Shown here piece by piece: positions 23,800 to 57,245 of a stretch of 64,000 nt of DNA (position 1 is its first letter; every line of letters begins with the position of its first letter). The stretch is taken from positions 31,938 through 95,937 of the forward strand of contig JAQGDQ010000787.1 of NCBI GenBank assembly GCA_030141605.1, in the 5' to 3' direction. Source of the stretch: Tubiluchus corallicola. Lineage: Eukaryota > Priapulida > Priapulimorpha > Priapulimorphida > Tubiluchidae. A program made the position numbers and the translations under genes. The notes beneath the pieces were generated by a model. That model saw nothing but the letters and a program-made list of their open reading frames with translations. It was not told the origin of the DNA and did not search any database.

Positions 23800-23839
23800 A
23801 ATTTTTCTAGGCATTTTAGTAAGCTAGGTGCTGCCATGG

Positions 23840-25440: not shown

Positions 25441-25449
25441 TTCATTTAC

Positions 25450-29700: not shown

Positions 29701-29734
29701 TATCGCTGCTGTCGCCATGTCATTATCATAAACA

Positions 29735-29904: not shown

Positions 29905-29939
<35 letters not shown>

Positions 29940-31606: not shown

Positions 31607-32146
31607 TTAAAGAAAAACCGGATGATTGTGTAAACATCAGCCCAGAATAAAGAATGCTCTCAAATATTGAAAACTACAATTATTATTTTTACAATAATAA
31701 TCAAAGATTAGATTAAATAATAATTACCTCAGATACTCAAATTTCGTTCAGTGGATCTACTAAGATTGGCAGCGGCGCCTTCTTGTCACATTCGCGTGGC
31801 CGACAAATAGAAGGCGGTACCGTGATAAGCATGATCATGAACTGCAGTGTTGGTTTCTGACGTTATATGATGTAGAGCCCATTTTTCGTGACATCATGCG
31901 TTTAAACAGTACTGTAACACTTATGCAAACGTGCTCGACGCGCAAGCGAAGACGCCTGCCATTGCACAAACTGTGGTTAGTTTCTGACGTAAGCAATAGC
32001 TGCGTTCGGTTGCCGTTAATTAACTTTCTAAGCTAATTATTCAAATATAAGGAACAATTGTTAACTTTAACAGGCAAGAAAATGTATATTTTGGTCAGTA
32101 AATTAAAATGAGATTGAGTCTAAACAATCGTCCGGTCTTCCTTTAA
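31607..32146 (+). mobile_element. TTAA-flanked MITE family T, copy 1
   Basis: TTAA-AGAAAAACCGG at 31607 and CGGTCTTCCT-TTAA ending 32146. About 90% of the sequence reappears at 33315-33845 and the ends at 59644-60269. No ORF. Confidence 0.8.
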
Positions 32147-33314
32147 GACATTACTTCTGGGTCAGAAGCCCAGGGCTTGATCTCTGCCCGCTGGAGAGCC
32201 TCAAAAGATGAGGTGGAAAGTTTCCTCATTGTATCTAGAAAAACGCTTGCAGAGTATCAATTGCTTTAAAGGAAACCAAATCCCCATTTTGAGGTGCGAT
32301 AAAGGTGCCTTCGTAAACCGATAACGCGTTTCCGAAATGCAGACGCTGGTGCCCATCTAACTGTCGAGTGCCGAAATGCATGTAACAGAAAGAGAGCTAG
32401 CCATGCCATGCCAACGCTTCTGTGATAATCTCTCTAATTTCTCGCATAACTCATTCTTGAAAAGTAGTACATTCCCTTTCAATATTTTAAAGAATAAGTT
32501 TTTTAGAAAACTAGCTTAAAATAAGCCTTTTCACAGTTCCATCGATTGATAATGATCATGAAAAGGTTAAGGCTAAGTCTATCAGACAACGCGTTTGTGT
32601 ACACTTTACAACGCCTCGCAGTCCATGCTATGGTAATAGTAGCAGTTTTTACAGGTAGCTAGAACCTTACCGAGTTTATTTTTTCTTGTTCGTAAACAAG
32701 ATACTGCTAGTAAATCACTCTAGACACAGACTAATCCATAATTAATTAAAGTTCACGTTAAACAACTCACGTTACTGAACTGACAGGGCAAACGGCTTTG
32801 TTTTATACGCATGTTACGTGACGGTTGTAGTTAAGATGCGTTGCTGTGGTGCACTTAACCGTTGACCTACAGAAACTGCGTCCGTGCACAACGAAACTAA
32901 GAAAAGACTTATTAGGTGGGTTTTTTAAAGTTTTTTTTTTGTTGACAGTAACAGTAGTATTCCTCAGTGGCTACATCTCGAGGGCCTGTAAAATCTGCCC
33001 ACAAAGATCAGAAATAAAAAGATTATCTTTCAGTTATAGTAACTAAGTGCTTCCTTCCTGTTGTGTAATTGATTACTGTCTCTTCTAATAAAATGATTAG
33101 AAATAAAAAAAATCACTTTATATTTTTATGGATAATAAAAGCGCTCCGAAATAATTACCAGTAATCGTGGTGAACAATTATGGTGAGACTTGGAAATTGT
33201 GTTTTTCTGAAAATTTCTACACATTAAATTAATTGAAATTGCTAAAACGTCTGAGTAATAAAGGGGATTAAATTGCGTGTGATGAATGAATGCTTATGAA
33301 AAGGAATCTATACA
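32147..33314. other. intergenic, nothing firm
   Basis: A lone CTTTAAAGGAAACCAAATCC at about 32265 resembles a family T end without a partner. Confidence 0.4.
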
Positions 33315-33845
33315 TTAAAGGAAAACCAAATGATTGTGCAAACATGAGCTCAGAATAAAAAATGTTCTAAAATATTGAAAATTACAATAGCTTATTTTAA
33401 ATCAAAGTTTAGATTAAATAATGATTACCTCAGGTACTCAAATTTCGTTCAGTGAATCTACTAAGATTGGCAGTGGCGCCTTTTTGTCACATTCGCGTAG
33501 CCGACAAATAGAAGACGGTACCGTGAAAACATGATCATGAACTGCAGTGTTAGTTTCCGACGTCATATGATGTAGAGCCCACTTTTCGTAACATCATGCG
33601 TTTAAACAGTACTGTAACACTTGTGCAAATGTGCTTGTTGCGCAAGGGAAGACGCCTGCCATTGCACAAACTGTGATTAGCTTCTGACGTATGCAATACC
33701 TGTGTTCGGCTGCCACTAATTAACTTTCTAAACTAATTATTCAAATATAAGAGCAACTGTTACCTTTTATAGACAAGAAAATCTATATTTTGGACAGTAA
33801 ATTAAAATAAGATTGAGTCTAAGCGATCGTTCGGTCTTCCTTTAA
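33315..33845 (+). mobile_element. TTAA-flanked MITE family T, copy 2
   Basis: TTAA-AGGAAAACCAAATG at 33315 and TTCGGTCTTCCT-TTAA ending 33845. Same orientation as copy 1 about 1.7 kb upstream, sharing GGCAGYGGCGCC, GATGTAGAGCCCA and GAAGACGCCTGCCATT. Confidence 0.8.
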
Positions 33846-35187
33846 GAATAAATTTACTAACAAATTAAAATAGAGGTAAACATACGGACTATAAATTATC
33901 GCCGTTAGCTTCACTGGTGGCTTGTAGTTAAAATTACTGGGAGCGCTGCTTCAGAAAATTTTTAACCATTGTTTAAATACTGTGTAAAGTGAAACAAACA
34001 TATGTAATTTAAATATTGTAATTTGTACTTGTAATTTTAAACAAACAAACATGCGAAAGTTTATACATTAACTTGATAAAATTCTAAACAAATAGCCTAA
34101 ATTGTCACAGTTCAATCTTGATCCATTTTCGGTAAGCACGTGACAACTAACAATAAACTGTGTGCGTGACAGTACTTTTTCTACTTGGGTTCAGACACGT
34201 GTGCGCAACAGCCAAACACCCCGCTGCTGGAGAACACTGTGCTAGGCTGTGAAGCAAACAGTACCACCCTCACGTGCTCTGGGTCGGTACATGTATAAAA
34301 AACGAACTAAAGAAAAAGGTCTTATTATAATGAACATTTTCGATAATATTGGGTGAAAATAGGGGGTGCTGCAGTTCCACGGTATCTATACACGAGCCGT
34401 CACTTATAAGAATAAGAAAACGAACATTTTTGTTTAATGCGTAATGTAAGACAGATTACATCTCAAAGAGCGTTTACAATGTGACCAATAAGCAGAGTTA
34501 TCATGTATTACTTGTGAAAGATATCGTAAATGCAAACGAGCGTAAACAGTTCGAATCCTCGAACAAGAATGAAATTAACCTGTTACTAGATTAGATACGT
34601 CAAAATCAACTTACGTAATGTATTTTTACTGTACTCTCCTTGACTACTTACTGTTTTATTTATTTTCCTTTTTTGTTGAAATTATTAAAATGTGTAAATA
34701 TTCTCTTTTTTCTGTGCTACTAACAAATTGAAATTGTGCTGCACTTTTGAAATAAATAGAATAGTTATTGTAGTAACTGTAATTATTGTTATTAGTAGTT
34801 ATGGTAGACTATTAACTGAAGTGCGGATGATGTTGAATTAAGTCGCATATCGTATCTTGTAAATTACTATTTATAATATTGCTGTTAAAGTAATTTTGTA
34901 ACTGTAGAAAATTAATTTTATATGTATTATAATTTTATTACCTCAGAATCGTCTCTAATCAAAAGAAAAATTTAACGATCCGGTTTGTATTTCGTTCTTA
35001 GGCAAAGACTGAGTATTATTCCTGCATATCAAGAGTAATAGGCATATCACTTGTCGGATTCGCTGACAAGCAATCTGGGTGTCTCGACCAGCTACGTACG
35101 CCAATAGACACGGTTTAATTATTTTATGTACATAAATTATAATCTTTATTTGCAGTTAAAATACATTACCTATAGTCCATCAGTAAC
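33846..35187. other. intergenic, nothing recognised
   Basis: No gene or repeat ends seen. Confidence 0.4.
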
Positions 35188-35335
35188 CTTTCTGCTTTCC
35201 GTCTGGGAGATCGTGAGTTCAATATTACGGCCAGGTCACACGAAAGTCTTTAAAAATGGTGCCTGCTGTTGTCCTGCCTGGTGTATGGTATTTGGGGTGA
35301 AAGTGGGTAATAAAATGAGGTAATAATAATATTTG
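35188..35335 (+). repeat. tRNA-derived SINE, 5'-truncated copy
   Basis: CTGCTTTCCGTCTGGGAG, CGTGAGTTC, TTTAAAAATGGTGCCTGCT, GTCCTGCCTGGTG and GGTATTTGGGGTGAAAGTGG align with the SINE at 28891-29167. It lacks the A box and its B box is disrupted, so it should be silent. Confidence 0.75.
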
Positions 35336-35431
35336 TTGTGTATGATTAGATTGTTATTTACAGTGGGCAATAAAAACTTCATGGCAAACTTGTGTTGTCT
35401 GTTGAATTTAAATTAACCCAACTTTACACAA

Positions 35432-35433
35432 TG

Positions 35434-35526
<93 letters not shown>

Positions 35527-35570
35527 GTCGTCATCATCATCATCAACTATCATTATCGTCATCATCATTA
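35432..35570. repeat. (ATT)n(ATC)n microsatellite
   Basis: Pure ATT from 35432 to about 35490 then ATC/GTC to 35570. Confidence 0.95.
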
Positions 35571-35973
35571 TTAATCACTGAAAAAAAGACTTTACAGAGA
35601 TGATCAATCAATTTTCAGTAGTAAACTCGGTTGCTCATTTTCACGATCGACGATAAGAAAGTGTACTGGTAATTTTTAATGATACAACAGTTGTTAAGAA
35701 GAGACCTGTGAAAATGTGACAGTCGGTGGAATTCTTGATTCTTGTTTGTGCTCTACCTGACGGCGTTTATCGTTTGGTATGATGATAACGATGAAGTTGC
35801 TTGGTAACGCCGCGTAAATTTCAAAACTTGTGGCGTGAAGCTTACTGATTTTCCTTGATTCCGGGTTAAAGTAGTAATTATTATTACTGATACTTTCCTG
35901 ATAACATTTTAGTCCACGGTATGTTATTAAACTTCCAATTGCTTGCATCTTGTCCTTGATTTTAACACCGTTA

Positions 35974-36507
35974 ACGGTTAATATAGGCATACACAAAGTG
36001 ATAGCTAAACTTGAAATATTTTGTTATATTGGAAGCTGAAGTGATAATAATTAAGCAGTTCTGTATTTAAGCCCAATATACGTTTACAGTAGTTTTGTTT
36101 CACGGTTAATATAGGGATACATAAAGTGATAGCTAAACTTGAAATATTTTGTTATATATATATTGGAAGCTGACGTGATAATAATTAAGCAGTACTATAT
36201 TTAAGCCCAATATACGTTTACAGTAGTTTTGTTTCACGGTTAATATAATTATAGGGATACATAAAGTGATAGCTAAACTTGAAATATTTTGTTATATATA
36301 TTGGAAGCTGAAGTGATAATAATTAAGCAGTACTATATTTAAGCCCAATATACGTTTACAGTACTCAGTAGTTTTGTTTCACGGTTAATATAGGCATACA
36401 TAAAGTGATAGCTAAACTTGAAATATTTTGTTATATATATATATATATATATATTGGAAGCTGAAGTGATAATAATTAAGCAGTACTGTATGTAAGCCCA
36501 ATATACA
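35974..36507 (+). repeat. four tandem units of about 130 bp
   Basis: Units begin ACGGTTAATATA at 35974, 36102, 36236 and 36381. Each continues AAAGTGATAGCTAAACTTG, TTGGAAGCTGA, GATAATAATTAAGCAGT and AAGCCCAATATACG. Length differences come from the TA run (longest 36433-36452) and small insertions. The array ends about 1 kb before the DNAH6 ATG. Confidence 0.9.
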
Positions 36508-36865
36508 ATTGATTTTGGTGCCTTAAATTGCAGCTAAACCTTTTTTTGAAGTAAAGTCATGTTTAGATTATATCTGTTGTGACTCTCAAATCTGCATGTC
36601 ATTCTTGCACGTCACGCATGTCCGACGAGTGTTGTGTACCTGTTTAGACTTTCGGATATTTCCGACGGAAAACAAAGCCGGCTGCCGGGGATCGAAGCGT
36701 GTCGCTCAAGAATTGTGCAAGTTGAATTTCTTTTTTGGCATCACGCAAAGCTGTTAATGTTGTTCACGCAGGTTTATTCATTGTTATAAAATGTCTGCGG
36801 GAGTTTCAACTTACACGTTTTATGCAGTGTTGTGGCCAAGGCAAGCCATGCATACGAAAAGGTAA

Positions 36866-37008
36866 TATGTAAGTGGTATAAAATTTCTAGACGAATTTTT
36901 TAAGCTGGATGTAAGTGAAGGGCTTTCTTGTGCTTTAAAGCACAAGAAACTACTCTTCATAAATGAAGCTTGAAGAATTCGGCTTGAAATTTTATATCAC
37001 TTCCATGC
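36866..37008. repeat. long palindrome upstream of DNAH6
   Basis: A perfect 26-bp palindrome with no spacer (36924-36949, centre TTTAAA) lies inside arms of about 55 bp. GTGGTATAAAATTTC.AGACGAATT on the left mirrors GAATTCGGCTTGAAATTTTATATCAC on the right. Confidence 0.85.
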
Positions 37009-37189
37009 GGTCTTATTGCACACAGAATTTGCATTAGCAATAATGCTGTATAAAACTTGTAAACTTAGATCATCATGTGCAGCCATTTTAACTGTAGGTC
37101 CTTTGAATCAAGTATTGCGTAAAGTTTCAAAAAATAATCAGAGCATTCGTAGTGCACTCTTTGCAGCCAAAACCAAAATTAATTTATAA

Positions 37190-37425
37190 TGTCAGTAAGA
37201 TTATTAATGAGTATTTAGGTGAATCAGTGGTGCACACTGAGTAGGCAATGCAGTGCCATTTTACCACATGGCGCGAACATTGTAAATTATTAAGAATTTT
37301 CCTTTCTGGTTACATAAGTATTTCAAACAGGTAAACGTAAATCTAAGTAATATAACTTTGCATGGAAACTTCTTTGTATAAATACTTTAAAGTTGCCTTT
37401 TCTTCCCTTTTAGAGTACTTTCAAT
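37190..37425 (+). repeat. dispersed repeat R, copy 2
   Basis: Matches the reverse complement of 15676-15930. Ends about 85 bp before the DNAH6 start codon, so part of the promoter or leader region is repeat-derived. Confidence 0.6.
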
Positions 37426-37476
37426 TCGTTATGTAGTTAATTAACATCGGTTGATCAGATCATATAAAATTATCAT

Positions 37477-37500
37477 GTTTACTGGATTTTAAAATTTCAG
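37477..37500 (+). other. possible 3' splice site just before the DNAH6 ATG
   Basis: GGATTTTAAAATTTCAG ends at 37500, 10 bp before the ATG. It could be the acceptor for a spliced 5' leader or spliced-leader addition. The pyrimidine tract is weak. Confidence 0.35.
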
Positions 37501-37510
37501 AGTAACGGAA

Positions 37511-40500
37511 ATGTCTACCAATTTTGAGAAAAAGCAGATAAAAGCAAGGAAGTTTTCTGCCGTTAGCGGTACAAGCCAGAATATTAGTCCGCAGAGATGG
37601 CAGCCGTTGCCGGCTCTTACCAGATATCAGACAAAAAAGGAGCAGCTAACTATTAAAACCGAGTTACGTGAAGAAGTCGACGAAACCAAAACAAAAGAAA
37701 AGGCAGCAAAACTAGTTAAGGATGTTTATGCAGAAAAACTAAGTGATAAACTTCAAGAACAGACACCTATTAGAGATGAAAAACTTTCGTTGCCAAAATT
37801 ACACAAGTCATTTCTGGAGCAGCAGAAAAAAATGTCATTTTCACGCAGGACTGTTTCGCGAACATTAAGTCCCATTTGTCCTGCTGTTTCGAAAGCTCAG
37901 CTGGCACCTGGCGTGGATCTAAACGTTCTAATGTCTATAACTGATCTTCTCACAATTGTGGAAATACTAAAGCAAAATCCTGATCTTGGGTTTTTGTATT
38001 TAACTTCTGCGGTGCCTAAATCGTCTGTGCATTATCATCCTTACAATCTAAAAGTTGTGAGGTACAGCGAGCGTGATAAATGTAGTTATTACACTTTTAG
38101 TCCCTATGGGGTGATGCATATTACTGACGAGGGACACACTTTTACCGACCTTGACAGGTGGACTCACGAGTACCGCTATTACCAAGAACTGATAAAAATT
38201 CCGATATTTAAACTGGCGAAAACACGAAAGGCTTTTACGTTTTGGAGGAAAACAGTGCGACGTACAAAGTATCGAAAAAGCCGAGAAAAAATCAAGGAAA
38301 ATCTTTTCATAACTAACCACTGCTTGAGACCGGCTCTGTTGAATGTCAGAGAAATGACGTGTGCGATAAGTCATATGAGCATGTGCGATATTAAAGAAGG
38401 TCGCACTTACACTCTTGAGGGTTTTGTGAAGGAGCAGTTAACCCAGTTACAAGATGTAGCTGCTCGGTTAAGAGAATTCCGAGATCTAGTGGCTGAAGTT
38501 GTGAGAAACGCTTGTAAAGTGACTTTGGTTACTGACGGATTCACCCCAGACAATTATAACGCTGATGACAGCACTGATATACCTATTGATAACAAAATCG
38601 TAGTTTGGGGTGATGCGCCCGAAAAAATGACATACACAGAGCAAGCGACGAAGCGCAGCAAGTGTCTCCGATTAACATGCTTTGTGCGACTAGCAGATTA
38701 CCTTGTTCTGAATGCGCTGCACGTGTTAACTGTGAACTCTATAGAGTTTTTGTTAAATAAGTTTCAGACTCTAGTTGACAAAACAGGCAATTTGCCAAAC
38801 AATTGTACAAAGGATGTCGACGAGAGAAAGTCGACACATTTATCGAGACCCTCTCTTGCAGTCAAATCTAGCACCGCTGTCGATGCTGGAAGTACACTTG
38901 ATACCATTCGTTTGGATGTCCCACTTTTTGTGACGCAAATGCAATTGCCAAAGAAAGTGTTGACATTTCGACCCTCACGGTATTATTTCCAAGTTGACAT
39001 TGAGAAAGTTATTGATGCCTTTAAGACAACAGCATTTGCCTTAGAAACACTTACACCAGATGCTACTTTTGATCCCTTTATTTGCCCGTACATCAACAGG
39101 AAAAAAGAAAGCAGGACCTGTGGCAATGGCCCTCGTCTTGAAGAGATAGTTGCAGATGATGGCAGAATAAAGCAAATTATTGCTGAGGTAAAAGCGCATA
39201 TAAGCAAAGCTTTTGCATACTGCGAGGAGTTTAGCAAAATCTTTGATCCTGTGCGCTCATTTTATTTGGAAAATGAAGCACTGGACAAAAAGTTGCTCAT
39301 AAAAGAAACATGCGACCTTGACTTCTTTCAAAGTGCGTTAGAGACATATTCCAGACAAAGTGTACAAGCATCTACTTTGCTGGACCAGACACCCATTGGA
39401 CTACTTCTGGTTGACACATTAGCACTAAAAGAACAGATAATTCCTTCACCTAGGCGCTGCCTTGATGTAATATATGATATCATGCCTACCCTTGCAAAAA
39501 CTAAAACTGATGAACTTATCACTGAGACCGAAGATGGAGTACACAGGCTACAAGCTAAACCTGAGACGACAATGGATTACGTAAACAAACTTTCATTTTT
39601 GGATTCCGTTCAGATGAGAATTGACATTCTTGAACAAGATGTCGATATTGTGCAGGATATGTATGACTTAATTGAGAAGTATGCTGTGCCTGTCCCGCCT
39701 GAAGACCTTGCTGTTTTTAGTACTTTGAGTGGATGTGCTTATTCTCTGCGTAGCGCTATTGATAGAGGAGTGTCTGAAAGGGACGCACTTATAGACAAAT
39801 TGGCTGTCATTTTAAGTAAGGATATGGCTTCCCTGAACAAAAGCGTGAAAGCTGTCTTTACAGATATACAGAATCCAGTTTTATTAGATCCAGATGTAAA
39901 TCAAGAAGAGATATGGTCACTGTTGAATTGCTTGCAGGAAAGCATGGATGAGTTACAGGCTCAGGCTTCAGAGTTTATAGGATATCAAAAGATGTTTAAT
40001 GTTGAAGTAGTGCCATTTGAAGGTGCAGAAGCGCAAAATGACTTGAAGTTGAGACAGACGCTGTGGAAATCTGTAAAAGAGTGGTCTGATGTTGTAAACG
40101 GATGGTACACATGTGAGTTTGAAAAAATAGAGCCTGAACAGTTGACGGTTGAAATTACCAAGTATGTGAGACTTGTTCAGCAACTAGAGAAAGGACTGCC
40201 GATGAACAAAATACTGCCAGAGCTAAAGGAAGAAGTTGAGGAAATGAGACACAAACTACCTGTCATTTCCAATTTGAGAAATCCTGCTCTTAAAAGTCGC
40301 CACTGGGAAGCAATTGAAAATGTGCTTGATAGATCCATTATGCCAGATGAGGTCATCACTCTTTTTCTGCTCGAACAAATTAATGCATTTGGTAGAAGCG
40401 AAGAAATTCAAAATATATCTGGTGAAGCTAGTGCTGAAGCTAGCTTGGAAACTATTCTGAAAAAGGTTGAAGATGCATGGAAGACTGCTGAGTTTATTGT

Positions 40501-43500
40501 TCTGCCCCACAAAGATTCTAAAGATGTGTTTATACTTGGTGGCACTGATGATATACAACAGTTGTTTGAGGACAGCAGTATAAACATTGGCACAATAGCA
40601 AACTCCCGTCACGTGGGGCCAATCAAACCGAGAGTTGATGAATGGGTAAAAAATCTTCAGCTGTTTGGCCAAACACTAGATCAGTGGCTGGAGTGTCAGC
40701 GCAACTGGTTGTATCTTGAAAACGTATTTTGTGCACCAGATATCCAGAGACAATTACCTGTTGAAGCAAAAATGTTTTCACAGGTAGATAAGTCGTGGAA
40801 GGACATTATGAGGAAGGTTAACAAAATACCTTTAGCAATCAGGGCGGCTACACAGCCTGGTTTACTAGAAACGCTGCAGACAAATAATGCTCTCCTGGAG
40901 CAAGTTCAAAAATGCTTGGAAGACTATTTGGAATCAAAGAGAGTTATTTTTCCGCGATTCTATTTCCTGTCTAATGATGAGTTGTTGGAAATTTTGTCCC
41001 AAACTCGAAATCCTCAGGCCGTGCAGCCTCATCTCAGAAAATGCTTCGATGCTATTGCATATCTTCAGTTTGGAACACAAGACGATAAACCTACGAATGA
41101 AATTCTTGCAATGAATTCACCTGAAGGTGAACATGTGGTGCTGCAGAAAGGACTTAAAGCCAGAGGCAATGTCGAAGAATGGCTTGGAAAGGTTGAAGAG
41201 GCTATGGTGTCAACTTTGCATAAAGCAACAAAGTTGGCCATTGCAGAGTTTTCTGAGGAGTCACGTACAAACTGGGTAATCAGTCATCCATCACAGGTTG
41301 TTCTTACTGCTTCACAAATAATTTGGTGTAGAACTCTAGAACAATGTTTAAATGCCGATGATGATAGATATGGGCTACTTGAAATGTTTCTAGAAAAATG
41401 TTTTTGTGATCTAAATGAGCTAGCTAGTTTAGTGCGTGGCGATCTGAGCAAACTCGAGCGCAGTACTATTTGTGCCCTTATTACTGTTGATGTTCATTCA
41501 AGAGATATTGTAACAGGAATGATTGAGGCAGAAGTAGATGAAATACATCATTTTGAGTGGCAAAAACAGTTGAGATATTATTGGAATCTGGAAATAGACA
41601 ATTGCTTAGTTTGTATGTCAAACTCTTCTTATGTTTACGGTTATGAGTACCTTGGTGCTTCTTCTAGACTGGTAATCACACCACTGACCGATCGTTGTTA
41701 TTTATGCTTAATGGGAGCCTTGCAGTTGAAGCTTGGTGGAGCACCAGCAGGTCCAGCAGGTACAGGAAAAACAGAGACTGTCAAAGATTTAGCCAAATCA
41801 CTTGCAAAACAGTGTGTTGTTTTCAACTGCTCAGAAGGACTGGATTATAAAATAATGGCTCGGTTTTTTGCGGGTTTGGCTCAGAGTGGTGCGTGGTTTT
41901 GTTTTGATGAATTTAACAGGATTGATATTGAAGTGTTGTCAGTTATTGCACAACAGCTTCTCACAATTCGTAATGCTAAAGTTGCCAACCTTAAAACGTT
42001 TGCATTTGAAGGTAGAGACATCAAACTTGTTCCATCGTGCGCTGCTTTTATAACAATGAATCCTGGATATGCAGGTCGAACAGAGTTACCTGATAATTTG
42101 AAGTCTCTGTTCAGACCTCAAGCAATGATGGTGCCAGATTACAGCTTGATTGCCGAAGTAATTTTGTATTCTGAAGGTTTTGAGTCTTCCAAATCCCTCG
42201 CAAAGAAGATGACTCAGATGTATAAACTTTGTAGTGAGCAACTTTCCCAGCAGGATCATTATGATTTTGGCATGAGAGCAGTAAAATCTGTTTTGGTCAT
42301 GGCGGGATCTTTAAAGCGAGAAAATCCGGACAAAAGTGAAGACGTGGTTTTGATAAGAGCTTTGAGAGATAGTAACCTCCCAAAGTTTCTTTCTCACGAT
42401 GTGGAATTATTTCAAGCCATATTGCAAGATCTGTTTCCTGGTGTTGTACTGCCAGAACATGATTATGGAAGTTTTGAGAAGTTTATTATTGAATCAATGA
42501 TAAGGCATGATTTGAAGGCTGTGCCAACGAGTGTGAAAAAGATAATTCAATTATTTGAAACAATGCAAGTTCGACATGGAGTCATGCTGGTGGGACCGAC
42601 TTGTGGTGGTAAGACTACTTGTTATGAAATACTAAAGGACACACTCACTGATCTTTACGAAGCAAAAATCGAACACCCTGACTACCGACCTGTCTCAACC
42701 TATGTACTTAATCCTAAATCTGTAACGCTGGGAGAATTATATGGTGAAGTTAATAAACTGACGCTCGAGTGGAGGGATGGTATACTTGCCCAGATTGTAA
42801 GAGCTGCTTGTCAAGATCTTAAGGATGAACATAAGTGGGTAGTGTGTGATGGACCAGTAGATGCATTGTGGATTGAGAACATGAATACTGTGCTTGATGA
42901 TAATAAGATGCTTTGCCTAGCAAATAGTGAAAGAATAAAGCTTCCACCTAATATTCATATGCTATTTGAAGTACAAGATTTAGCAGTTGCGTCTCCAGCT
43001 ACTGTTAGTAGATGTGGCATGGTTTATGTGGACCCAGAAGAACTGGGATGGAAGCCTTATGTGGAAACATGGATACCCCGTCTTGATGCTAAGGGAATTA
43101 GACCTGAATTGACCGATTATATTTTGGAGCTTTTTCATAGATATGTAGACGACGGACTAAGATTTGTTAAGAAAAAATGTGTGCAGGCAATGGAGCAGGT
43201 TGATTTAGGTAAAGTGGCTACTCTTTGCTACCTTCTAGAATCTTTGCTAACGGCTGAAGATGGTCCTAATTTGGACATGGCTGGAATTCAGTTGAATGGT
43301 CTTATATATATGACTTTTGTCTTTTGCTACTTCTGGGCTATTGGTGGTAACTTGAGCGAGTGTTCCGGTGAAGAATTTAATGCGTTTGTTCATGAACAGT
43401 TTGAGGATAAAGACGCCAGAATCCCTTCAGGTGAGGAATTATGGAAATATTACGTTGATTATGAGACTCAGCAATTTGAATTATGGGATCGCGTTGTACC

Positions 43501-46500
43501 TCGCTTTAATTATAGCAAAACTTTGCCATTTTTCGATATGCTTGTTCCTACTGTATATTCCGTTAAGTTTAGCTTTCTTATGGAAAAATTAGTCACTGTG
43601 CATAAGCCTGTTTTATTTACTGGGACAACAGGTGTTGGAAAATCCGTGATTGCAAGCAGTTTGTTGAATAAAGCAACTAAAAGAGGAAAATACCTGTCGA
43701 TGTTTATAAACTTTTCAGCTCAAACCAGCAGTAATCGCATGCAAAGCATGATCGAAGGAAAGCTGGAGAAGCACAAGAAAAATGTTTTAGGTCCACCATC
43801 TGACAAGCGAATGGTTATATTTGTCGATGATTTAAATATGCCCAAATTAGATACATATGGCTGCCAGCCACCAATAGAACTGCTGAGACAATATCTAGGT
43901 TTTGGAGGATTCTATGACAGAGACCAGTTATTTTGGAAGGAAATTCACAATGTGACCCTCTGTGCAGCTTGCGCACCTCCCGGGGGTGGTCGTAATCCAG
44001 TTACTCTAAGATTGATTCGCTTCTTCAGCATGTTTTGTATTCCGTCACCTGATGAAAGTAGTCTCAAGCATATATTTTCTTGTATTATCACAGGCTTCCT
44101 AGCAGATTACAACCATGCTGTGAAGCAGAGTGCAGAATATGTAGTAAAGTCAGCAGTTGAGATATACAATCGCATGTCAACTGATCTCTTACCCACGCCA
44201 GCAAAGTCACACTACGTTTTCAACTTGCGAGATCTTTCTAAGTGCATACAGGGCATGCTACAGGTTTCACCAATAGTTGTTAAATCTCAGCAACAACTTT
44301 TAAGGTTATTTCACCATGAAGCATTAAGAGTCTTTCATGACAGACTTATAAATCAAGAGGACAAATTATATTTCCATAATATTTTAGCTGAGGTTTCTTA
44401 CCGGCAGTTTCATGAACATATTGACCCAGTAAGCTTCACTGCATCACCAATTATATTTGGAGACTTTGTTAAAACAGAGGTAGAGAAAGCTGACAGACTC
44501 TACGAAGACTTATTAGATATGGATAAAGTGAAAAAGGCTCTTGACAAGTACCTTGATGACTATAACATGGAGTCTTCCAAGGAGCTGAAACTGGTTTTCT
44601 TCTTAGATGCAGTAGAACATATTTCTCGTATAGCAAGAGTGATTCGACAAGAAAGAGGTAATGCCCTTTTAGTGGGAGTTGGTGGCACTGGAAAACAATC
44701 TGTAACTAAACTGGCAAGTCACTTTTGTGGGTGCGACTGCTTCCAAATTGAACTGTGTCGTGGGTATGACTACACTGCATTTCGTGAGGATTTGAAAGCT
44801 CTTTATTTTGCTGCAGGGTTAGAAAACAAGAGCACAGTGTTTCTCTTCAGTGACACCCAAATTGTGGTCGAAGAGTTTCTAGAAGACATAAATAACATGC
44901 TGAATTCAGGTGAAGTTCCAAATTTATTTGAACCTGAAGATTATGAGCAGATAATGATTAAATGCCGTGATCCTGCAGAAGCAGCAGGTGTTGTTGATAA
45001 TGACAGAGATGGGATTTTCCAGTTTTTCATTAACCGAGTAAGAAATAATCTTCATATTGTTCTTTGTATGTCACCAGTTGGAAATAGCTTCAGAAATCGA
45101 TGTCGCATGTTTCCTTCACTCATTAATTGCTGCACAATTGATTGGTTTACTGAATGGCCACAAGACGCCTTGCTGTCAGTGTCTGAAGCCTTGTTCGAAC
45201 AGGTAGATTTAGGTGACGACACTGTCAAAAACAAAATTTCGGCAATGTGTAGTGAAATCCACTTGTCGGTTACAGAATTGACAGAGAAGTTTTATGCTGA
45301 ATTGAGACGTCGTTATTATACAACACCTACGAGCTACTTAGAATTAATAAATTTGTACATCTGTATGTACAAAAAAAAGAAGGAGGAAATAATCTCTGCA
45401 CGTGACCGAGTAAAAAATGGATTGTCAAAATTGCTTGAAACAAATGAGCTTATTGGTAAAATGGAAGTCGAATTAGTAGCCCTTGAACCCGTATTAAAGA
45501 GAAAGTCGGAAGAAGTTACGAAGCTGATGAAAGAGCTGTCCGTTGATAAGCAAAAGGCAGATAAAGTCAGAAAAGTTGTCATGGTAGATGAAGCTAAAGC
45601 AACAATGAAAGCTGATGAAACAGCTGCAATTGCGGCTGATGCGCAAAGAGACCTTGATGAAGCCCTTCCTGCATTGGAAGCCTCAGTAAAAGCTTTAGAT
45701 GCATTAGACAAAAATGACATTTCTGAAGTAAAAGTTTTCAGTAAACCTCCTGAAATGGTGTTAACCGTAATGGAGGCTGTTTGCATTCTTTTAGGTGCAA
45801 AACCAGATTGGGAAATGTCAAAAAAACTTCTGAGTGATGCAGGTTTTTTAAAGAGGCTTGTTGATTACGATAAAGATAGTATTCCCGATTCTACTTTGAA
45901 AAAACTGAAAAAATATATTGAGAATCCTAAGTTTGTTCCTGAAGTTGTAGAAAAAACTTCAAAAGCTTGCAAGTCACTTTGCATGTGGATAATTGCTATT
46001 GACCTTTACGCAAAAGTTGTAAAAGTAGTGGAACCAAAAAGAAAAAAGTTAGCAATAGCGCAAAAAGAGCTTGATGCAACAAATGCAGTTCTTAAAGAAC
46101 AGCAAGATAAACTTCATAAGGTTGAAGATAATATAAAATCACTCCAACAAAAGTATGAAGATACTGTGCGAGAGAAAAGTGAACTACAAGGAAACATTCA
46201 ACAAACTTCCAACAGACTTAAGAGAGCGTCCGTTTTGACAACAGCGTTAGCAGATGAGGAAGAAAGGTGGAAAATCTCTGCCTTATCATTTGAAGATGAT
46301 TTAAATAATATAGTTGGTAATGTTTTTGTTGCAGCTGCTTGTGTTGCTTATTATGGTGCCTTTACGAGTCAGTATAGAGACCAATTGGTAGGTCCTTGGG
46401 TAGCCAAGTGTAAACAACTACAGATTCCAATTTCTAGTGATTTCAATTTGATAAAAATTTTGGGTGATCCTTATAAAATACGACAATGGAACATTGATGG

Positions 46501-49500
46501 GTTACCTAGAGATGATTTTTCGACAGAGAATGCTTTATTGGCAACAAATAGTAATCGCTGGCCCCTTTTGATCGATCCTCAGGATCAAGCAAATCACTGG
46601 ATTATGCAAATGGAGGCAAAGAACAACCTACAGATAGTTAAACAAACAGACAGCAATTTCATGCGAACTGTAGAAAATTGCATTCGAATTGGTATGCCAA
46701 TTCTGATCGAAGAAGTGCAAGAGTCTCTGGATCCAGCTTTGAAACCAGTGCTGTTGAAGCAAACATTCATAGAAGGTGGAAGGCCTGTCATCCGGCTTGG
46801 TGAAAGTGTTGTTGATTATGACCCGAACTTTCGTTTGTATTTGACCACAAAGCTAGCAAATCCACATTATTTGCCTGAGATATGCATAAAAGTAACAATT
46901 ATCAATTTCACCGTGACTCTGTCTGGACTTGAAGACCAACTACTAAGCGATGTTGTTAGTTTAGAAAGACCAGATTTAGAAACAGAGCGAAATAAGTTAA
47001 TTGTTGAAATTAATAACAACAAAAATCAGCTTAAAAACATTGAAGACAAAATTTTGCACATGCTATATAATTCAGAAGGAAATGTGCTGGATGATGAGGA
47101 ATTAGTGAATGCTCTTAATGATTCCAAAGTTACTTCAGGAGTTATTGCGAGAGAACTGAAAAATGCTGTAACTACTGAGGAGAAAATAACCAAAGCTCGT
47201 GAAAAGTATCGATCAGTTGCTGCCCGAGGAAGTGTCCTGTATTTTGTTATAGTCGACCTAGCTGAAATTGATCCAATGTACCAGTATTCTCTGAAGTATT
47301 TTAAGCAGCTATTCAGCATGTGCATAGAAAACAGTGAGAAGAGCGAAAATCTGCAAACACGGTTGCAGACACTTCTGGATCAGTCACTTCTTACTGTATA
47401 TACAAATGTTTCCAGGGGTCTTTTTGAAAGACATAAATTATTGTTCTCCTTTATGTTGTGTACTTCAATTATGAGACAAGATGATGTCATAAAGCAGTCA
47501 GAGTGGAATTTCTTTGTCCGAGGTCCGGCTGGCATTGATAAGGAGCGAAGAGAGAAAGAAGATTTACCATGGTTGTCTCAGGCAATGTGGAATATGTGTT
47601 GTGATCTAGCAGACACCATACCAGCTTTTGCCAGTTTAACCGATGTTGTCACTAAATGTAATTGTTATGTCACAATTGGTGAAACAAAGGTGTCCATAAA
47701 TCCAACCGAATGGCCAACCTACAAACCTGATCTGTCGAAAAATTGTGATGATGGTTACTGGAATGGCAGGCTTAGTGACTTTCAAAAACTTATGTTTGTC
47801 AAAGCATTCCGAGAAGAGAAGGTTCTTTTTGCTGTTACAGATTTTGTACGAAGAAATCTTAGTCAAACATTTGTTGAAAGCCCTCCCGTGGAGCTTCAGC
47901 TTTTGTATGAGGATATTAGTTACAAAATTCCTTTGGTCTTTATTCTTAGCACCGGCTCAGATCCAATGGGAGCATTTATGCGATTTGCCAGAGAAAAAAA
48001 TTATGCCGACAAGGTGCAAACTATCTCCCTTGGCCAAGGCCAAGGACCTGTTGCCGAAAAGCTAATAGCAAGTGCCTTGGAAACAGGAGAGTGGGTGTTT
48101 TTGCAAAATTGTCATCTAGCAGCATCGTGGATGCTGACTATGGAAACATTAATAAAGTCATTTTCAACAAAAGATGCAGAGATTAACAAAAACTTTCGTC
48201 TTTTTCTCAGCTCGATGCCAGTTAAATCATTTCCTGTGAGTGTTTTGCAGAACAGCGTTAAGGTAACCAATGAACCACCTAAAGGACTTCGTGCAAACAT
48301 CAGAAGAGCATTTGGTGAATTAACACCAGAAGCCTTTGAGGAGCATCATCTGGGAATGGACTGGAAAAAAATCATTTTTGGTATCTGCTTTTTTCATGCT
48401 ATTGTACAAGAAAGGAAAAAATTTGGACCGCTTGGCTGGAATATTCAGTACGACTTCAGCGACAGTGACCGAGAATGTGCTATAGAAAATTTGAAAATCT
48501 TCTGTGCTGAAAGTGCAATACCATGGGAAGCATTAATTTATATAACAGGGCAGATCACGTACGGTGGCCGTGTAACGGATTATTGGGATGAGAGATGCTT
48601 ACGGACAGTTTTAAAGCGCTTTTTTGCACCTGAAACCTTGGAAACAGATTACAAATATTCTGAGTCAGGCATGTATTATGCACCAGAATACATGTCATTG
48701 CAGGAATACAGAGATTACATAAATGATCTGCCAATTGCGGATGATCCTGAAATCTTTGGTATGAATTACAATGCAAATATTTCCTACCAAATAGAAGAAA
48801 CAAACAAACTGATTACTACACTGATGAACGTACAGCCAAGGTTGGTGGGTGGTGGAACAGGGGAATCAAATGATGACACAGTTCACGACCTTTCTGTTAA
48901 CATTCTAGATAAGCTAACAGAAAAGCTTGACATAGAAGAAGCACCCGAAGCTTTATTTGAACTTGATGCCAATGGTAGAATAAATTCACTCACTACTGTC
49001 CTCTCTCAGGAAGTAGATAGGTTTAATAACCTTTTAAGAATAATAAAAGACTCCCTCCAAACTCTTCAAAAAGCAATAAAGGGATTTGTTGTAATGAGTG
49101 AAGAACTGGAAAATGTTTATAATGCATTTTTAAACAACCGAGTGCCAGAACTTTGGGAAAGTGCTGCTTATCCATCTTTAAAACCGCTCGGAAGCTGGGT
49201 GACTGATTTGGTTATGCGGACTGCGTTTATTGATGATTGGATACACCATGGCCACCCATTTTCATATTGGATGTCAGGTTTGTTCTTTCCACAAGGCTTT
49301 CTCACCGGTACATTACAAAATCATGCTAGGAAATACGGGCTTCCAATAGATCAGTTAAGTTTTGAGTTTCATGTTCTTCCTTTGTACAGACATCAAGCAG
49401 AATACTTTGCTGTCAGGGACAAGATGAGATTTGGCAGAAAGCTGGCTATAGATGAAGAACTACCATGCATCGAAGATGGCGTCATTGTGCATGGCATCTT

Positions 49501-49786
49501 CATGGATGCCTTCAGGTGGAACATGGAAGACATGGTTGTTGAAGATTCCCTCTTTGGGGAGATGACGTCTCCGCTGCCAGCTATGCACATGGAGCCAAAA
49601 ATGAATTACGAACTTGGAGAGAATCTGTACACCGCTCCCTTATACAAAACTGGTGCCAGAGCAGGCGTATTGTCCACAACTGGTCATTCCACGAACTTTG
49701 TTGTGCCTGTTCATCTGCCCAGCATGCAGCCACAGGATTATTGGATATCAAAGGGAGCAGCCTTGCTTTGTCAGCTCAATGATTGA
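37511..49786 (+). CDS. DNAH6: axonemal dynein heavy chain 6, intronless (4,091 aa)
   Basis: Single-headed inner-arm dynein heavy chain, a microtubule motor in the ciliary or flagellar axoneme. Residues 1 to about 1330 form the tail and linker. AAA1 has Walker A GPAGTGKT at 1414-1421 and Walker B FCFDEFNR at 1463-1470. AAA2 has GPTCGGKT at 1695-1702. AAA3 has GTTGVGKS at 2038-2045 and FVDD near 2104. AAA4 has GVGGTGKQS at 2389-2397. The coiled-coil stalk spans about 2630-2915 with the microtubule-binding tip around 2735-2830. AAA5 begins near 3010, and AAA6 and the C-terminal domain run to the end (GARAGVLSTTGHSTNFVV; YWISKGAALLCQLND). Sequence throughout resembles vertebrate DNAH6 (about 4,150 aa) more than DNAH3, 7 or 12. 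An in-frame stop at 37490 precedes the ATG. All four P-loops are intact. Unusually, 12.3 kb has no intron or stop, whereas vertebrate orthologues have dozens of exons. Confidence 0.95.
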   Translation: MSTNFEKKQIKARKFSAVSGTSQNISPQRWQPLPALTRYQTKKEQLTIKTELREEVDETKTKEKAAKLVKDVYAEKLSDKLQEQTPIRDEKLSLPKLHKSFLEQQKKMSFSRRTVSRTLSPICPAVSKAQLAPGVDLNVLMSITDLLTIVEILKQNPDLGFLYLTSAVPKSSVHYHPYNLKVVRYSERDKCSYYTFSPYGVMHITDEGHTFTDLDRWTHEYRYYQELIKIPIFKLAKTRKAFTFWRKTVRRTKYRKSREKIKENLFITNHCLRPALLNVREMTCAISHMSMCDIKEGRTYTLEGFVKEQLTQLQDVAARLREFRDLVAEVVRNACKVTLVTDGFTPDNYNADDSTDIPIDNKIVVWGDAPEKMTYTEQATKRSKCLRLTCFVRLADYLVLNALHVLTVNSIEFLLNKFQTLVDKTGNLPNNCTKDVDERKSTHLSRPSLAVKSSTAVDAGSTLDTIRLDVPLFVTQMQLPKKVLTFRPSRYYFQVDIEKVIDAFKTTAFALETLTPDATFDPFICPYINRKKESRTCGNGPRLEEIVADDGRIKQIIAEVKAHISKAFAYCEEFSKIFDPVRSFYLENEALDKKLLIKETCDLDFFQSALETYSRQSVQASTLLDQTPIGLLLVDTLALKEQIIPSPRRCLDVIYDIMPTLAKTKTDELITETEDGVHRLQAKPETTMDYVNKLSFLDSVQMRIDILEQDVDIVQDMYDLIEKYAVPVPPEDLAVFSTLSGCAYSLRSAIDRGVSERDALIDKLAVILSKDMASLNKSVKAVFTDIQNPVLLDPDVNQEEIWSLLNCLQESMDELQAQASEFIGYQKMFNVEVVPFEGAEAQNDLKLRQTLWKSVKEWSDVVNGWYTCEFEKIEPEQLTVEITKYVRLVQQLEKGLPMNKILPELKEEVEEMRHKLPVISNLRNPALKSRHWEAIENVLDRSIMPDEVITLFLLEQINAFGRSEEIQNISGEASAEASLETILKKVEDAWKTAEFIVLPHKDSKDVFILGGTDDIQQLFEDSSINIGTIANSRHVGPIKPRVDEWVKNLQLFGQTLDQWLECQRNWLYLENVFCAPDIQRQLPVEAKMFSQVDKSWKDIMRKVNKIPLAIRAATQPGLLETLQTNNALLEQVQKCLEDYLESKRVIFPRFYFLSNDELLEILSQTRNPQAVQPHLRKCFDAIAYLQFGTQDDKPTNEILAMNSPEGEHVVLQKGLKARGNVEEWLGKVEEAMVSTLHKATKLAIAEFSEESRTNWVISHPSQVVLTASQIIWCRTLEQCLNADDDRYGLLEMFLEKCFCDLNELASLVRGDLSKLERSTICALITVDVHSRDIVTGMIEAEVDEIHHFEWQKQLRYYWNLEIDNCLVCMSNSSYVYGYEYLGASSRLVITPLTDRCYLCLMGALQLKLGGAPAGPAGTGKTETVKDLAKSLAKQCVVFNCSEGLDYKIMARFFAGLAQSGAWFCFDEFNRIDIEVLSVIAQQLLTIRNAKVANLKTFAFEGRDIKLVPSCAAFITMNPGYAGRTELPDNLKSLFRPQAMMVPDYSLIAEVILYSEGFESSKSLAKKMTQMYKLCSEQLSQQDHYDFGMRAVKSVLVMAGSLKRENPDKSEDVVLIRALRDSNLPKFLSHDVELFQAILQDLFPGVVLPEHDYGSFEKFIIESMIRHDLKAVPTSVKKIIQLFETMQVRHGVMLVGPTCGGKTTCYEILKDTLTDLYEAKIEHPDYRPVSTYVLNPKSVTLGELYGEVNKLTLEWRDGILAQIVRAACQDLKDEHKWVVCDGPVDALWIENMNTVLDDNKMLCLANSERIKLPPNIHMLFEVQDLAVASPATVSRCGMVYVDPEELGWKPYVETWIPRLDAKGIRPELTDYILELFHRYVDDGLRFVKKKCVQAMEQVDLGKVATLCYLLESLLTAEDGPNLDMAGIQLNGLIYMTFVFCYFWAIGGNLSECSGEEFNAFVHEQFEDKDARIPSGEELWKYYVDYETQQFELWDRVVPRFNYSKTLPFFDMLVPTVYSVKFSFLMEKLVTVHKPVLFTGTTGVGKSVIASSLLNKATKRGKYLSMFINFSAQTSSNRMQSMIEGKLEKHKKNVLGPPSDKRMVIFVDDLNMPKLDTYGCQPPIELLRQYLGFGGFYDRDQLFWKEIHNVTLCAACAPPGGGRNPVTLRLIRFFSMFCIPSPDESSLKHIFSCIITGFLADYNHAVKQSAEYVVKSAVEIYNRMSTDLLPTPAKSHYVFNLRDLSKCIQGMLQVSPIVVKSQQQLLRLFHHEALRVFHDRLINQEDKLYFHNILAEVSYRQFHEHIDPVSFTASPIIFGDFVKTEVEKADRLYEDLLDMDKVKKALDKYLDDYNMESSKELKLVFFLDAVEHISRIARVIRQERGNALLVGVGGTGKQSVTKLASHFCGCDCFQIELCRGYDYTAFREDLKALYFAAGLENKSTVFLFSDTQIVVEEFLEDINNMLNSGEVPNLFEPEDYEQIMIKCRDPAEAAGVVDNDRDGIFQFFINRVRNNLHIVLCMSPVGNSFRNRCRMFPSLINCCTIDWFTEWPQDALLSVSEALFEQVDLGDDTVKNKISAMCSEIHLSVTELTEKFYAELRRRYYTTPTSYLELINLYICMYKKKKEEIISARDRVKNGLSKLLETNELIGKMEVELVALEPVLKRKSEEVTKLMKELSVDKQKADKVRKVVMVDEAKATMKADETAAIAADAQRDLDEALPALEASVKALDALDKNDISEVKVFSKPPEMVLTVMEAVCILLGAKPDWEMSKKLLSDAGFLKRLVDYDKDSIPDSTLKKLKKYIENPKFVPEVVEKTSKACKSLCMWIIAIDLYAKVVKVVEPKRKKLAIAQKELDATNAVLKEQQDKLHKVEDNIKSLQQKYEDTVREKSELQGNIQQTSNRLKRASVLTTALADEEERWKISALSFEDDLNNIVGNVFVAAACVAYYGAFTSQYRDQLVGPWVAKCKQLQIPISSDFNLIKILGDPYKIRQWNIDGLPRDDFSTENALLATNSNRWPLLIDPQDQANHWIMQMEAKNNLQIVKQTDSNFMRTVENCIRIGMPILIEEVQESLDPALKPVLLKQTFIEGGRPVIRLGESVVDYDPNFRLYLTTKLANPHYLPEICIKVTIINFTVTLSGLEDQLLSDVVSLERPDLETERNKLIVEINNNKNQLKNIEDKILHMLYNSEGNVLDDEELVNALNDSKVTSGVIARELKNAVTTEEKITKAREKYRSVAARGSVLYFVIVDLAEIDPMYQYSLKYFKQLFSMCIENSEKSENLQTRLQTLLDQSLLTVYTNVSRGLFERHKLLFSFMLCTSIMRQDDVIKQSEWNFFVRGPAGIDKERREKEDLPWLSQAMWNMCCDLADTIPAFASLTDVVTKCNCYVTIGETKVSINPTEWPTYKPDLSKNCDDGYWNGRLSDFQKLMFVKAFREEKVLFAVTDFVRRNLSQTFVESPPVELQLLYEDISYKIPLVFILSTGSDPMGAFMRFAREKNYADKVQTISLGQGQGPVAEKLIASALETGEWVFLQNCHLAASWMLTMETLIKSFSTKDAEINKNFRLFLSSMPVKSFPVSVLQNSVKVTNEPPKGLRANIRRAFGELTPEAFEEHHLGMDWKKIIFGICFFHAIVQERKKFGPLGWNIQYDFSDSDRECAIENLKIFCAESAIPWEALIYITGQITYGGRVTDYWDERCLRTVLKRFFAPETLETDYKYSESGMYYAPEYMSLQEYRDYINDLPIADDPEIFGMNYNANISYQIEETNKLITTLMNVQPRLVGGGTGESNDDTVHDLSVNILDKLTEKLDIEEAPEALFELDANGRINSLTTVLSQEVDRFNNLLRIIKDSLQTLQKAIKGFVVMSEELENVYNAFLNNRVPELWESAAYPSLKPLGSWVTDLVMRTAFIDDWIHHGHPFSYWMSGLFFPQGFLTGTLQNHARKYGLPIDQLSFEFHVLPLYRHQAEYFAVRDKMRFGRKLAIDEELPCIEDGVIVHGIFMDAFRWNMEDMVVEDSLFGEMTSPLPAMHMEPKMNYELGENLYTAPLYKTGARAGVLSTTGHSTNFVVPVHLPSMQPQDYWISKGAALLCQLND

Positions 49787-50646
49787 TGGTGCTTATAATA
49801 TTTTCTTACTTAACTTATTCAGTTTTTGTATTATAATTGTTAAGTATTTATAATAGAGGTATATTCAATTTGCCTCACTTTTTGTGACTCAAACTTTGCA
49901 CAGCTGCTAAGTTCATTGTGCTATCTTTACAGTCTTCCAGTTAATGTCTGGTATTGTGTGATATTCCGTACACATTTGTTACTATAACTACCTGAAAATT
50001 GTAGTGAGATCAGAGATATACACAATTGACGGGTGTTTTATAATTGTTGTCTGACATATACTATAATTCGTATAAAATTATATAGTCCTTCTTATCTGAA
50101 AGATGAAAGCTATAGTATATTATAGCTATAAACCATAGATTTTTTGAAGTACATTACAGAAATCCAACTATGCACATACAGTCAAATGTCTTTATACTGC
50201 CTACTTTGGGACTGTAAGGTTTGGCACTGTAACAAGGTGCATTAATTCATGCATATCTATGGAAATATAGGCATTTGTTTTGTTGAAAATTTGGGCATTA
50301 GGCATTATAATGACGTTTAACTGTATACTAATAAGTTTTATCTACGATTTACCACTGATTTACATCAAATTAACTCTTAGGTGTTAATACTATAATAACT
50401 TCTACGTATGCTGTAATTTGTGATACATTTTACTTTTTTACGATATTCAGTATTTTGTGCTCGTCCTTGTGGGCATGTCTATGTTCACATTATGTAAGTG
50501 CAAATCATTAACTATTTTTAAACATAAATTAACCCTCGCAGTAATAATATGTCTGCTTCCAAGAATAAAAAAATTACATTTAAGAGTGATATCTTAAAAA
50601 TCGCATTGATTTTTTTTTTGAAGTTCAAAGCATGTTTGTGTATAAC
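49787..50646 (+). other. DNAH6 3' UTR and flank
   Basis: No gene. AATAAA at about 50564 (AAGAATAAAAAAATTAC) is the first strong poly(A) signal after the stop, which would give a 3' UTR of about 0.8 kb. Confidence 0.45.
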
Positions 50647-51149: not shown

Positions 51150-53000
51150 TGCTCCATACAGTCTCAAAGTTTGTTTCAGACTACGCGTTCAGTTACAAAG
51201 TTTGCTTAAGACTAGAAGCTTTCAGTCAGTCTCAAAGTTATGTCAAACTAGAACCTTTCAGTTAGTCTCAAAGTTTATTTAAGACTAGAAGCTTTTGCTC
51301 AGTGTCAGAGTTTGTTTCAGACTAGAAGCTTTTGGTCATGCTCAAAGTCTATTTTAGACTAGAAGCTTTTGGTCAGTGTCAATTTTTTTTCAAATTATAA
51401 AATTTCGCTTTTAAGGTGACACACTTTCTAGCTGACGAAGGTTGAAATCAAAAGCTTCTAGTCTGAAATAAACTTTGAAACTGACCAAAAGTTTCTAGTT
51501 TTGAAATAAACTTCGAGACTGACCGAAAGCTTCTACCCTGCAATAAACTTTGAGACTGACCAATGGTTTCTACCCTGTAATAAACTTTGAGACTGAACAA
51601 AAGTTTATAGTCTGTAATAAACTTTGAAACTGACCAAAGGTTCCTAGTTCTGAAATAAACTTTGAGACTGACCAAAAGCTTCTAGCCTTTTATAAACGTT
51701 GAGACTGACTGAAAGCTTCTAGTCTGACATAAACTTTGAGACTGAGCAAAAGCTTCTAGTCTGACATAAACATTGAGACTGAGCAAAAGCTTCTAGTCTG
51801 ACATAAACTTTGAGACTGACTGAAAGCTTCTAGTCTGACATAAACTTTAAGACTGAGCAAAAGCTTCTAGTCTGACATAAACATTGAGACTGAGCAAAAG
51901 CTTCTAGTCTGACATAAACTTTGAGACTGACTGAAAGCTTCTAGTCTGACATAAACTTTGAGACTGATTGAAAGCTTCTAGCCTGACATAAACTTTGAGA
52001 CTGACCAAAAGTTTCTAGTTCTGAAATAAACCTTGAGACTGACTGAAAGCTTCTAGTCTGACATAAACTTTGAGACTGATTGAAAGCTTCTAGCCTGACA
52101 TAAACTTTAAGACTGAGCAAAAGCTTCTAGTCTGACATAAACATTGAGACTGACTGAAAACTTCTAGTCTGACATAAACTTTAAGACTGAGCAAAAGCTT
52201 CTAGTCTGACATAAACATTGAGACTGAGCAAAAGCTTCTAGTCTGACATAAACTTTGAGACTGACTGAAAGCTTCTAGTTTGACATAAGCTTTGAGACTG
52301 ACTGAAAGCTTCTAGCCTGACATAAACTTTGAGACTGATTGAAAGCTTCTAGCCTGACATAAACTTTAAGACTGAGCAAAAGCTTCTAGTCTGACATAAA
52401 CTTTGAGACTGACCAAAAGTTTTTAGTTCTGAAATAAACCTTGAGACTGACTGAAAGCTTCTAGTCTGACATAAACTTTGAGACTGACCAAAAGTTTTTA
52501 GTTCTGAAATAAACTTTGACACTGACTGAATGCTTCTAGCCTGACATAAACTTTGAGACTGCCCGAAAGCTTCTAGCCTGACATAAACTTTGAGACTGAT
52601 TGAAAGCTTCTAGTCTGACATAAACTTTGAGACTGACTGAAAGCTTCTAGTCTGACATAAACTTTGAGACTAACTGAAAGCTTCTAGCCTGACATAAATT
52701 TTGAGACTGACTGAAAGTTTCTAGCCTGACATAAACCTTGATACTGACTGAAAGCTTCTAGCCTGACATAAACTTTGACACTGACTGAATGCTTCTAGTC
52801 TGACATAAACTTTGAGACTGACTGAAAGCTTCTAGCCTGACATAAACTGTGAGACTGACTGAAAGCTTCTAGTCTGACAAACTTTGAGACTGACTGAAAG
52901 CTTCTAGCCTGACATAAACTTTAAGACTGACTGAAAGCTTCTAGTCTGACATAAACTTTGAGACTGACTGAAAGCTTCTAGTCTGACATAAACTTTCTTC
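51150..53000. repeat. 37-bp minisatellite with an internal orientation switch
   Basis: About 42 units of CTTCTAGTCTGACATAAAC + TTTGAGACTGACTGAAAG run 51446-53000. About six units of the same repeat lie in the opposite orientation at 51150-51398, separated by about 50 bp of unrelated sequence. Most units carry AAGCTT. Variants alternate in runs (CAAAAGCTTCT / GAAAGCTTCT; AACATTGAG / AACTTTGAG), which shows duplication of multi-unit blocks. Confidence 0.9.

Positions 53001-57245
<4,245 letters not shown>

Follow-up and report, generated by a model that had tools for sequence, protein, structure and literature searches.

The priapulid Tubiluchus corallicola carries a gene, identified here as axonemal dynein heavy chain 6 (DNAH6), whose 4,091 codons lie in one coding exon. 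The gene encodes an intact motor and is strongly conserved, no second copy of it was found in the assembly, and its dynein paralogues in the same genome are dense in introns. We propose that this sole DNAH6 found probably descends from a near-full-length reverse transcript of a spliced mRNA whose parent gene was lost, which would make it an orphan retrogene, the product of retrogene replacement, encoding a working inner-arm dynein. Under this proposal the gene would have passed through an RNA step and relocated, its parent would have disappeared, and the present copy would be expressed and functional. The gene lies in what we call the window, the whole stretch of 64,000 nucleotides that was analysed (G000:C1957:31938-95937). 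All genome searches were run on the window's own assembly, which comprises 343.5 Mb in 2,344 contigs. Features with coordinates are collected in Table 1; positions refer to the window unless a contig is named.

Table 1. Features of the window and single-frame kinesin loci of the same assembly.
Feature	Position	Strand	Evidence or remark
DNAH6 single-exon coding sequence, 4,091 aa	37511..49786	+	ORF call, Pfam, structure and protein-database matches, P-loops
Candidate upstream intron (prediction only)	36862..37413	+	donor 8.5, acceptor 7.6
Weaker candidate acceptor, 10 bp before ATG	37481..37500	+	score 3.5
First AATAAA past the stop codon (1,364 bases scanned)	50564..50569	+	next at 50848
GMDS N-terminal exon match	53471..53587	+	match limits converted from C1957, not exact splice sites
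GMDS middle exon match	54386..54583	+	match limits, not exact splice sites
GMDS last exon	56472..57242	+	open frame of 257 codons
Kinesin, motor in one frame, KIF3A by tail	G000:C349:20006-22087 (L048)
Kinesin, motor in one frame	C1556 (L049)
Kinesin, motor in one frame, with FHA and PX domains	C530 (L050)
Kinesin, motor in one frame, with KIF2A-type N-terminus	C2263 (L051)
Kinesin, motor in one frame	C1583 (L052)

The DNAH6 frame and its product

An earlier note on this DNA had described an uninterrupted 12.3-kb DNAH6 ORF, and a single open frame was indeed recovered there, running from ATG to TGA over 12,276 bp of the forward strand (37511-49786) with zero internal stops. The other two same-strand frames hold 299 and 391 stops over this interval, which excludes a chance origin of the frame. 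Vertebrate DNAH6, by comparison, is divided into dozens of exons. Pfam analysis assigned 20 families to the product and placed the dynein linker, the AAA1 to AAA6 regions, the stalk, the lids and the C-terminal domain in the correct order. A search with P-loop and Walker-B motif strings located GPAGTGKT (1414), GPTCGGKT (1695), GTTGVGKS (2038) and GVGGTGKQS (2389), as well as all four Walker-B-like motifs sought. The four P-loops, stalk and C-terminus claimed previously were thus all found, with AAA5, AAA6 and the lid in addition, and the ORF contains a complete motor, from the P-loops of AAA1-4 through the stalk, AAA5 and AAA6 to the C-terminal domain.

Among solved structures, the top three chains were all DNAH6 (5,464-5,501 bits; best 60 of 88 matches), and the DNAH6 matches span at least query residues 141-4090. 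Entry 8glv followed, with chains lacking an animal type name at 3,915 and 3,017 bits; putative protist-type chains reached 2,989 and 2,959 bits, and DNAH1, DNAH7, DNAH12, DNAH2 and DNAH3 scored 2,741-2,907 bits, with DNAH1 at 2,907. The nearest database proteins were echinoderm DNAH6, 60-62% identical across almost the full length. As judged from these matches, the ORF product is full-length axonemal dynein heavy chain 6. Set against echinoderm, vertebrate and mollusc DNAH6, it is a full-length orthologue, mostly with 59-62% identity over near-whole proteins (Anneissia, 64% over 84%), and it differs from them in its one coding exon and in an N-terminus that begins approximately 40-55 residues inside those of most other DNAH6 compared. 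Database searches for nearer DNAH6 relatives turned up none from a closely related species. In a DNAH6 tree without a priapulid relative, the ORF branched between those of Physella and Schistosoma, the support there being mixed (0.988, 0.300).

Conservation was assessed at the 2,089 positions that are invariant in the DNAH6 of Acanthaster, Antedon, Branchiostoma, Protopterus, Physella and Rhinolophus. The ORF keeps 1,825 of them (87.4%), compared with 1,702 (81.5%) in Schistosoma DNAH6, which argues that it is a conserved DNAH6 and not a decaying one; the protein appears constrained and looks like a divergent family member. When the six reference proteins were left out one at a time, they kept 93.4-97.6% of the invariant positions, above the value of the ORF, a difference that makes relaxation or fast evolution possible. 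Alignment with 12 DNAH6 proteins revealed 20 gaps unique to the ORF, a count that leaves out the four DNAH6-like alignment rows of Schistosoma, Siphonaria, Vombatus and Anneissia; 12 of these gaps fall in the first 470 residues. Past residue 838, the sole insertion unique to the ORF is one residue long, and no retained intron pieces were visible in the same alignment. The ORF is composed of 31.9% A and 28.6% T.

Copy number and introns of dyneins and kinesins in the assembly

Searching the assembly with the tail (residues 1-1376), for which 34 of 73 candidates were scored, yielded 34 matches. Two contigs matched at 100% identity and a further 32 hits lay at 29-63%; among these, residues 1-899 match nowhere beyond the two self-contigs. 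With the stalk region (residues 2601-3450), 53 of 168 candidates were scored and 53 matched, namely the same two contigs and 51 others at 27-64%. Some of the other matches lie on C173, C73, C1120 and C447, contigs without an AAA_6 match, with identities like those of the paralogue hits. At the DNA level, 37400-49900 returned 20 short matches of 54-120 bases at 71-84% identity, the best listed being 91 bases at 84% (20 of 22 candidates scored; the two self-copies are unlisted and are presumably the unscored two). Among the candidates scored in these tail, stalk and DNA searches, no second DNAH6 was found in the assembly, so that the intron-bearing copy which the earlier note had proposed to look for did not appear. 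That note had offered two readings, a long retrocopy that stayed functional or the loss of every coding intron in the lineage. Removal of introns from a functional gene, common to both, is supported, whereas a retrocopy beside its parent gives way to a sole copy found, which leaves either an orphan retrogene or conversion in place by cDNA.

The second self-contig, C2045, is 100% identical to the window's contig C1957 over 57,403 bases, a stretch that stops at the right-hand edge of C1957 and at the limit of the fetched C2045. We therefore rejected the existence of two DNAH6 copies and regard C2045 as a redundant contig that repeats this locus. Redundant contigs seem habitual in this assembly; one other dynein occurs with identical scores on C45, C2048, C2100, C2197 and C2212. 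COX1 was not found in the assembly. Given the redundant contigs, the lack of COX1 and the partly scored candidates, an intron-bearing parent may possibly have been missed. Redundancy of this kind also lends something to the idea that introns were dropped in assembly, or that the sequence comes from a contaminating intron-poor organism, but we consider such an artefact highly improbable. C2045 gives an identical DNAH6 sequence, an assembler would not be expected to excise introns exactly at frame-keeping joints, and the same contig bears an intron-bearing animal GMDS gene and long tandem repeats.

The sister dyneins are organized quite differently from DNAH6. An AAA_6 domain search gave 100 matches, namely two intact self-copies and 98 fragments, of which 28 on four contigs scoring identically to C45 were taken as redundant; loci were grouped by contig. 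All 12 of the 12 other AAA_6-bearing dynein loci are split, into 70 pieces in total, with an average of 5.8 per 327 residues. Scaled to 4,091 residues, this density predicts ~60 introns for DNAH6, a rough extrapolation in which each piece is taken as an exon and which would be too low if small exons escaped detection. From 8 of 17 fetched stretches, on five contigs, we delimited 17 distinct dynein introns of 92-1,420 bp. These loci bear on a stepwise, lineage-wide loss of introns, by which DNAH6 would be intronless across the phylum as an old and ordinary state. Long exons are no rarity here, since the GMDS matches show only two coding introns and five kinesins have a single-frame motor, but the loss is not family-wide, and with introns retained at the 12 other AAA_6 dynein loci we regard the stepwise route as quite unlikely. 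A single RNA-mediated event is favoured because the traceless loss of ~60 introns one by one would be far harder.

A kinesin search returned 111 matches (122 of 132 candidates scored). Five loci have a whole or near-whole motor in one frame, within open frames of 698-1,335 codons (Table 1), and the remaining kinesin matches are partial pieces. Residues 471-682 of the C349 kinesin match KIF3A chain 9w9h (3.7e-81) and its best motor match is a KIF3B chain; by its tail, the gene is assigned to KIF3A. From sequence features, we take L049 to be presumably KIF3B-like, and L052 is presumably KIF26-like. The fetched stretches of two further long-frame kinesin loci, C2175 and C1314, contained no complete ORF reaching 200 or 300 aa. 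Large exons occur in some kinesins of other animals, and for this reason not all five are proven intron losses. As read from their frames, the five loci suggest that DNAH6 is less isolated than it would otherwise be, and that intron loss or retrogene replacement may have been recurrent in this genome. A broader, tentative and to us doubtful proposal is that in this lineage reverse transcription repeatedly replaced motor genes of the cytoskeleton and of cilia (DNAH6, KIF3A, the KIF3B-like kinesin and others) by full-length intronless copies, using an enzyme processive over more than 12 kb; DNAH6 would then rank among the longest functional orphan retrogenes.

Flanking sequence and the origin of the single-exon gene

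Using 12 DNAH6 N-termini as queries, we found no convincing upstream coding exon in window 25001-37700. A short extra 5' coding exon beyond the ORF may exist, and the shorter N-terminus could reflect a 5'-truncated reverse transcript, N-terminal divergence or a missed short exon. The best hit besides the ORF (28591-28671, forward strand, E 0.045) was obtained with one of the 12 queries, starfish DNAH6; at 9 kb upstream, it overlaps query sequence that the ORF already accounts for and is probably a chance match. Regarding the possible 3' splice site that had been placed 10 bp before the ATG, an AG ending at 37500 is present, but its score is unremarkable: it is reached by 11.7% of the 1,772 AGs in window 4000-36000, and the leave-one-out scores of 17 modelled acceptors range from -5.2 to 9.4. 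The predicted donor at 36862, paired with the acceptor at 37413, would make a better leader intron than the 37500 acceptor.

The flanks were also claimed to lack a poly(A) tract and flanking duplications, and this description holds. No poly(A) tract was found, the longest downstream A-run being 7, and no target-site duplication was found: the longest word common to the 1.1 kb upstream and the 1.4 kb downstream is 12 bp, and 46 of 188 randomly paired stretches taken as non-coding likewise had words of at least 12 bp in common. A recent processed retrocopy was rejected, as its flanks show neither mark. The absence of both counts against a retrogene, yet an old event would have lost them. A length of 12.3 kb is long for a retrocopy.

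The flanks also fit the main rival to retrogene replacement, in which recombination between a DNAH6 cDNA and the native locus removed the introns in place, with no move and no lost parent. In-place loss agrees with the lack of a second copy, a poly(A) tail and flanking duplications, and would leave the native promoter in place, together with any leader intron; scale apart, it accounts for the same data. Scale is where it becomes demanding, as it requires conversion across the whole gene, with probably about 60 introns. At least one dynein paralogue may be very long: hits on C64 extend over 625555-734733 of a single strand and may represent a single gene of about 109 kb, compared with 12.3 kb for DNAH6. 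We consider in-place loss unlikely, though a more serious contender than stepwise loss.

For the orphan retrogene that we favour, the following sequence of events is envisaged. The reverse transcriptase of a retroelement would have copied spliced DNAH6 mRNA in germline cells, and the cDNA would have integrated into the genome. The integrated copy would then have gained a promoter, perhaps together with a non-coding leader exon, and only afterwards would the parent with its many introns have disappeared.

Retrogene replacement, in which a single-exon retrocopy supplants a multi-exon gene and becomes an orphan retrogene, is an established process. In amphioxus, the ~3,200 bp of SYCP1 coding sequence form a single exon, the parent is gone and the 5' untranslated region is new and split into several exons; the authors consider the same origin 'highly likely' for Ciona SYCP1, which is single-exon at another locus (PMC5803294). 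In Volvox and Chlamydomonas, 129 of 141 retrogene candidates were without a parent (PMC4972966), a screen of the kelp Saccharina japonica identified 16 orphan retrogenes (PMC5463336), and a review names parent loss as one of the main origins of intronless tunicate genes (PMC5408686). Tubiluchus DNAH6 resembles amphioxus SYCP1, whose counterparts in most animals have multiple exons, in being the sole copy found and in having a single coding exon (PMC5803294). It differs in size, its 12,276 bp being nearly four times the length of the amphioxus exon, and in that amphioxus SYCP1 is intronless in three species with expression shown, whereas DNAH6 is known here from one genome's sequence (PMC5803294). 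Like the algal (PMC4972966) and kelp (PMC5463336) orphan retrogenes, it is intronless and its genome yielded no intron-rich parent; those genes were defined via intron-bearing homologues in relatives, whereas DNAH6 is defined here via same-genome paralogues.

DNAH6 fits a known kind, and its size and the absence of probably ~60 introns stand out. Among the open-licence papers listed, none was seen to describe an intronless DNAH6, as judged from titles and the beginnings of abstracts. The match to the 'out of the testis' pattern of germline-expressed genes is suggestive only (PMC5803294). If the proposed origin is confirmed, a gene of probably ~60 introns would have lost all of them and would still serve as the only copy, these introns would be dispensable for expressing a very long coding sequence, and DNAH6 would provide a length benchmark for retrogene replacement. 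In human cells, HUSH is described as repressing intronless transgenes, increasingly with length and sense-strand A content, with introns being protective (PMC8770142); DNAH6, if confirmed, would offer a natural test of such silencing of long intronless transcripts.

GMDS and other features of the contig

GMDS lies 3.7 kb downstream of DNAH6 on the same strand and has at least three coding exons. The contig is animal host DNA in which splicing occurs, since it carries this intron-bearing gene. Two other host genes with introns had been claimed for the window; the claim is borne out for GMDS, one of the two only. Among the matches listed, the best full-length relative of GMDS is that of Priapulus caudatus (81% identity), and the top-listed match is a partial Toxocara protein, with 74% identity across 66% of the query. 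In a tree built from 29 sequences and 256 residues, for which 28 relatives were hand-chosen among 120 matches listed of 7,996, the window and Priapulus separated from the 27 others with a bootstrap of 94, a weak pointer to a priapulid or another scalidophoran.

Between DNAH6 and GMDS, a 37-bp tandem repeat extends over 51451-52996 in 41.7 copies, preceded at 51189-51382 by 5.3 copies of the same repeat in apparently opposite orientation. A 35-bp tandem repeat with 10.7 copies occupies 22771-23144, and C exceeds G on the forward strand there (GC skew -0.31 over 22001-24000). A 775-aa ORF at 647-2974 of the forward strand matches SCAN, zinc-knuckle and retroviral-type protease families and is apparently the gag/protease of an LTR retroelement. 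Two near-alike ORFs on the reverse strand (10372-10728 and 63527-63910) lie inside repeats matching at 91%; by eye they resemble the end of a non-LTR reverse transcriptase, and Pfam analysis of the 10372-10728 ORF gave no match. On the same contig, to the left of the window, repeated exon-like ORFs that appear CUB-like by eye were observed in L017 (1003-1581 and 2717-3217) and L018 (2249-2896 and 4305-4967).
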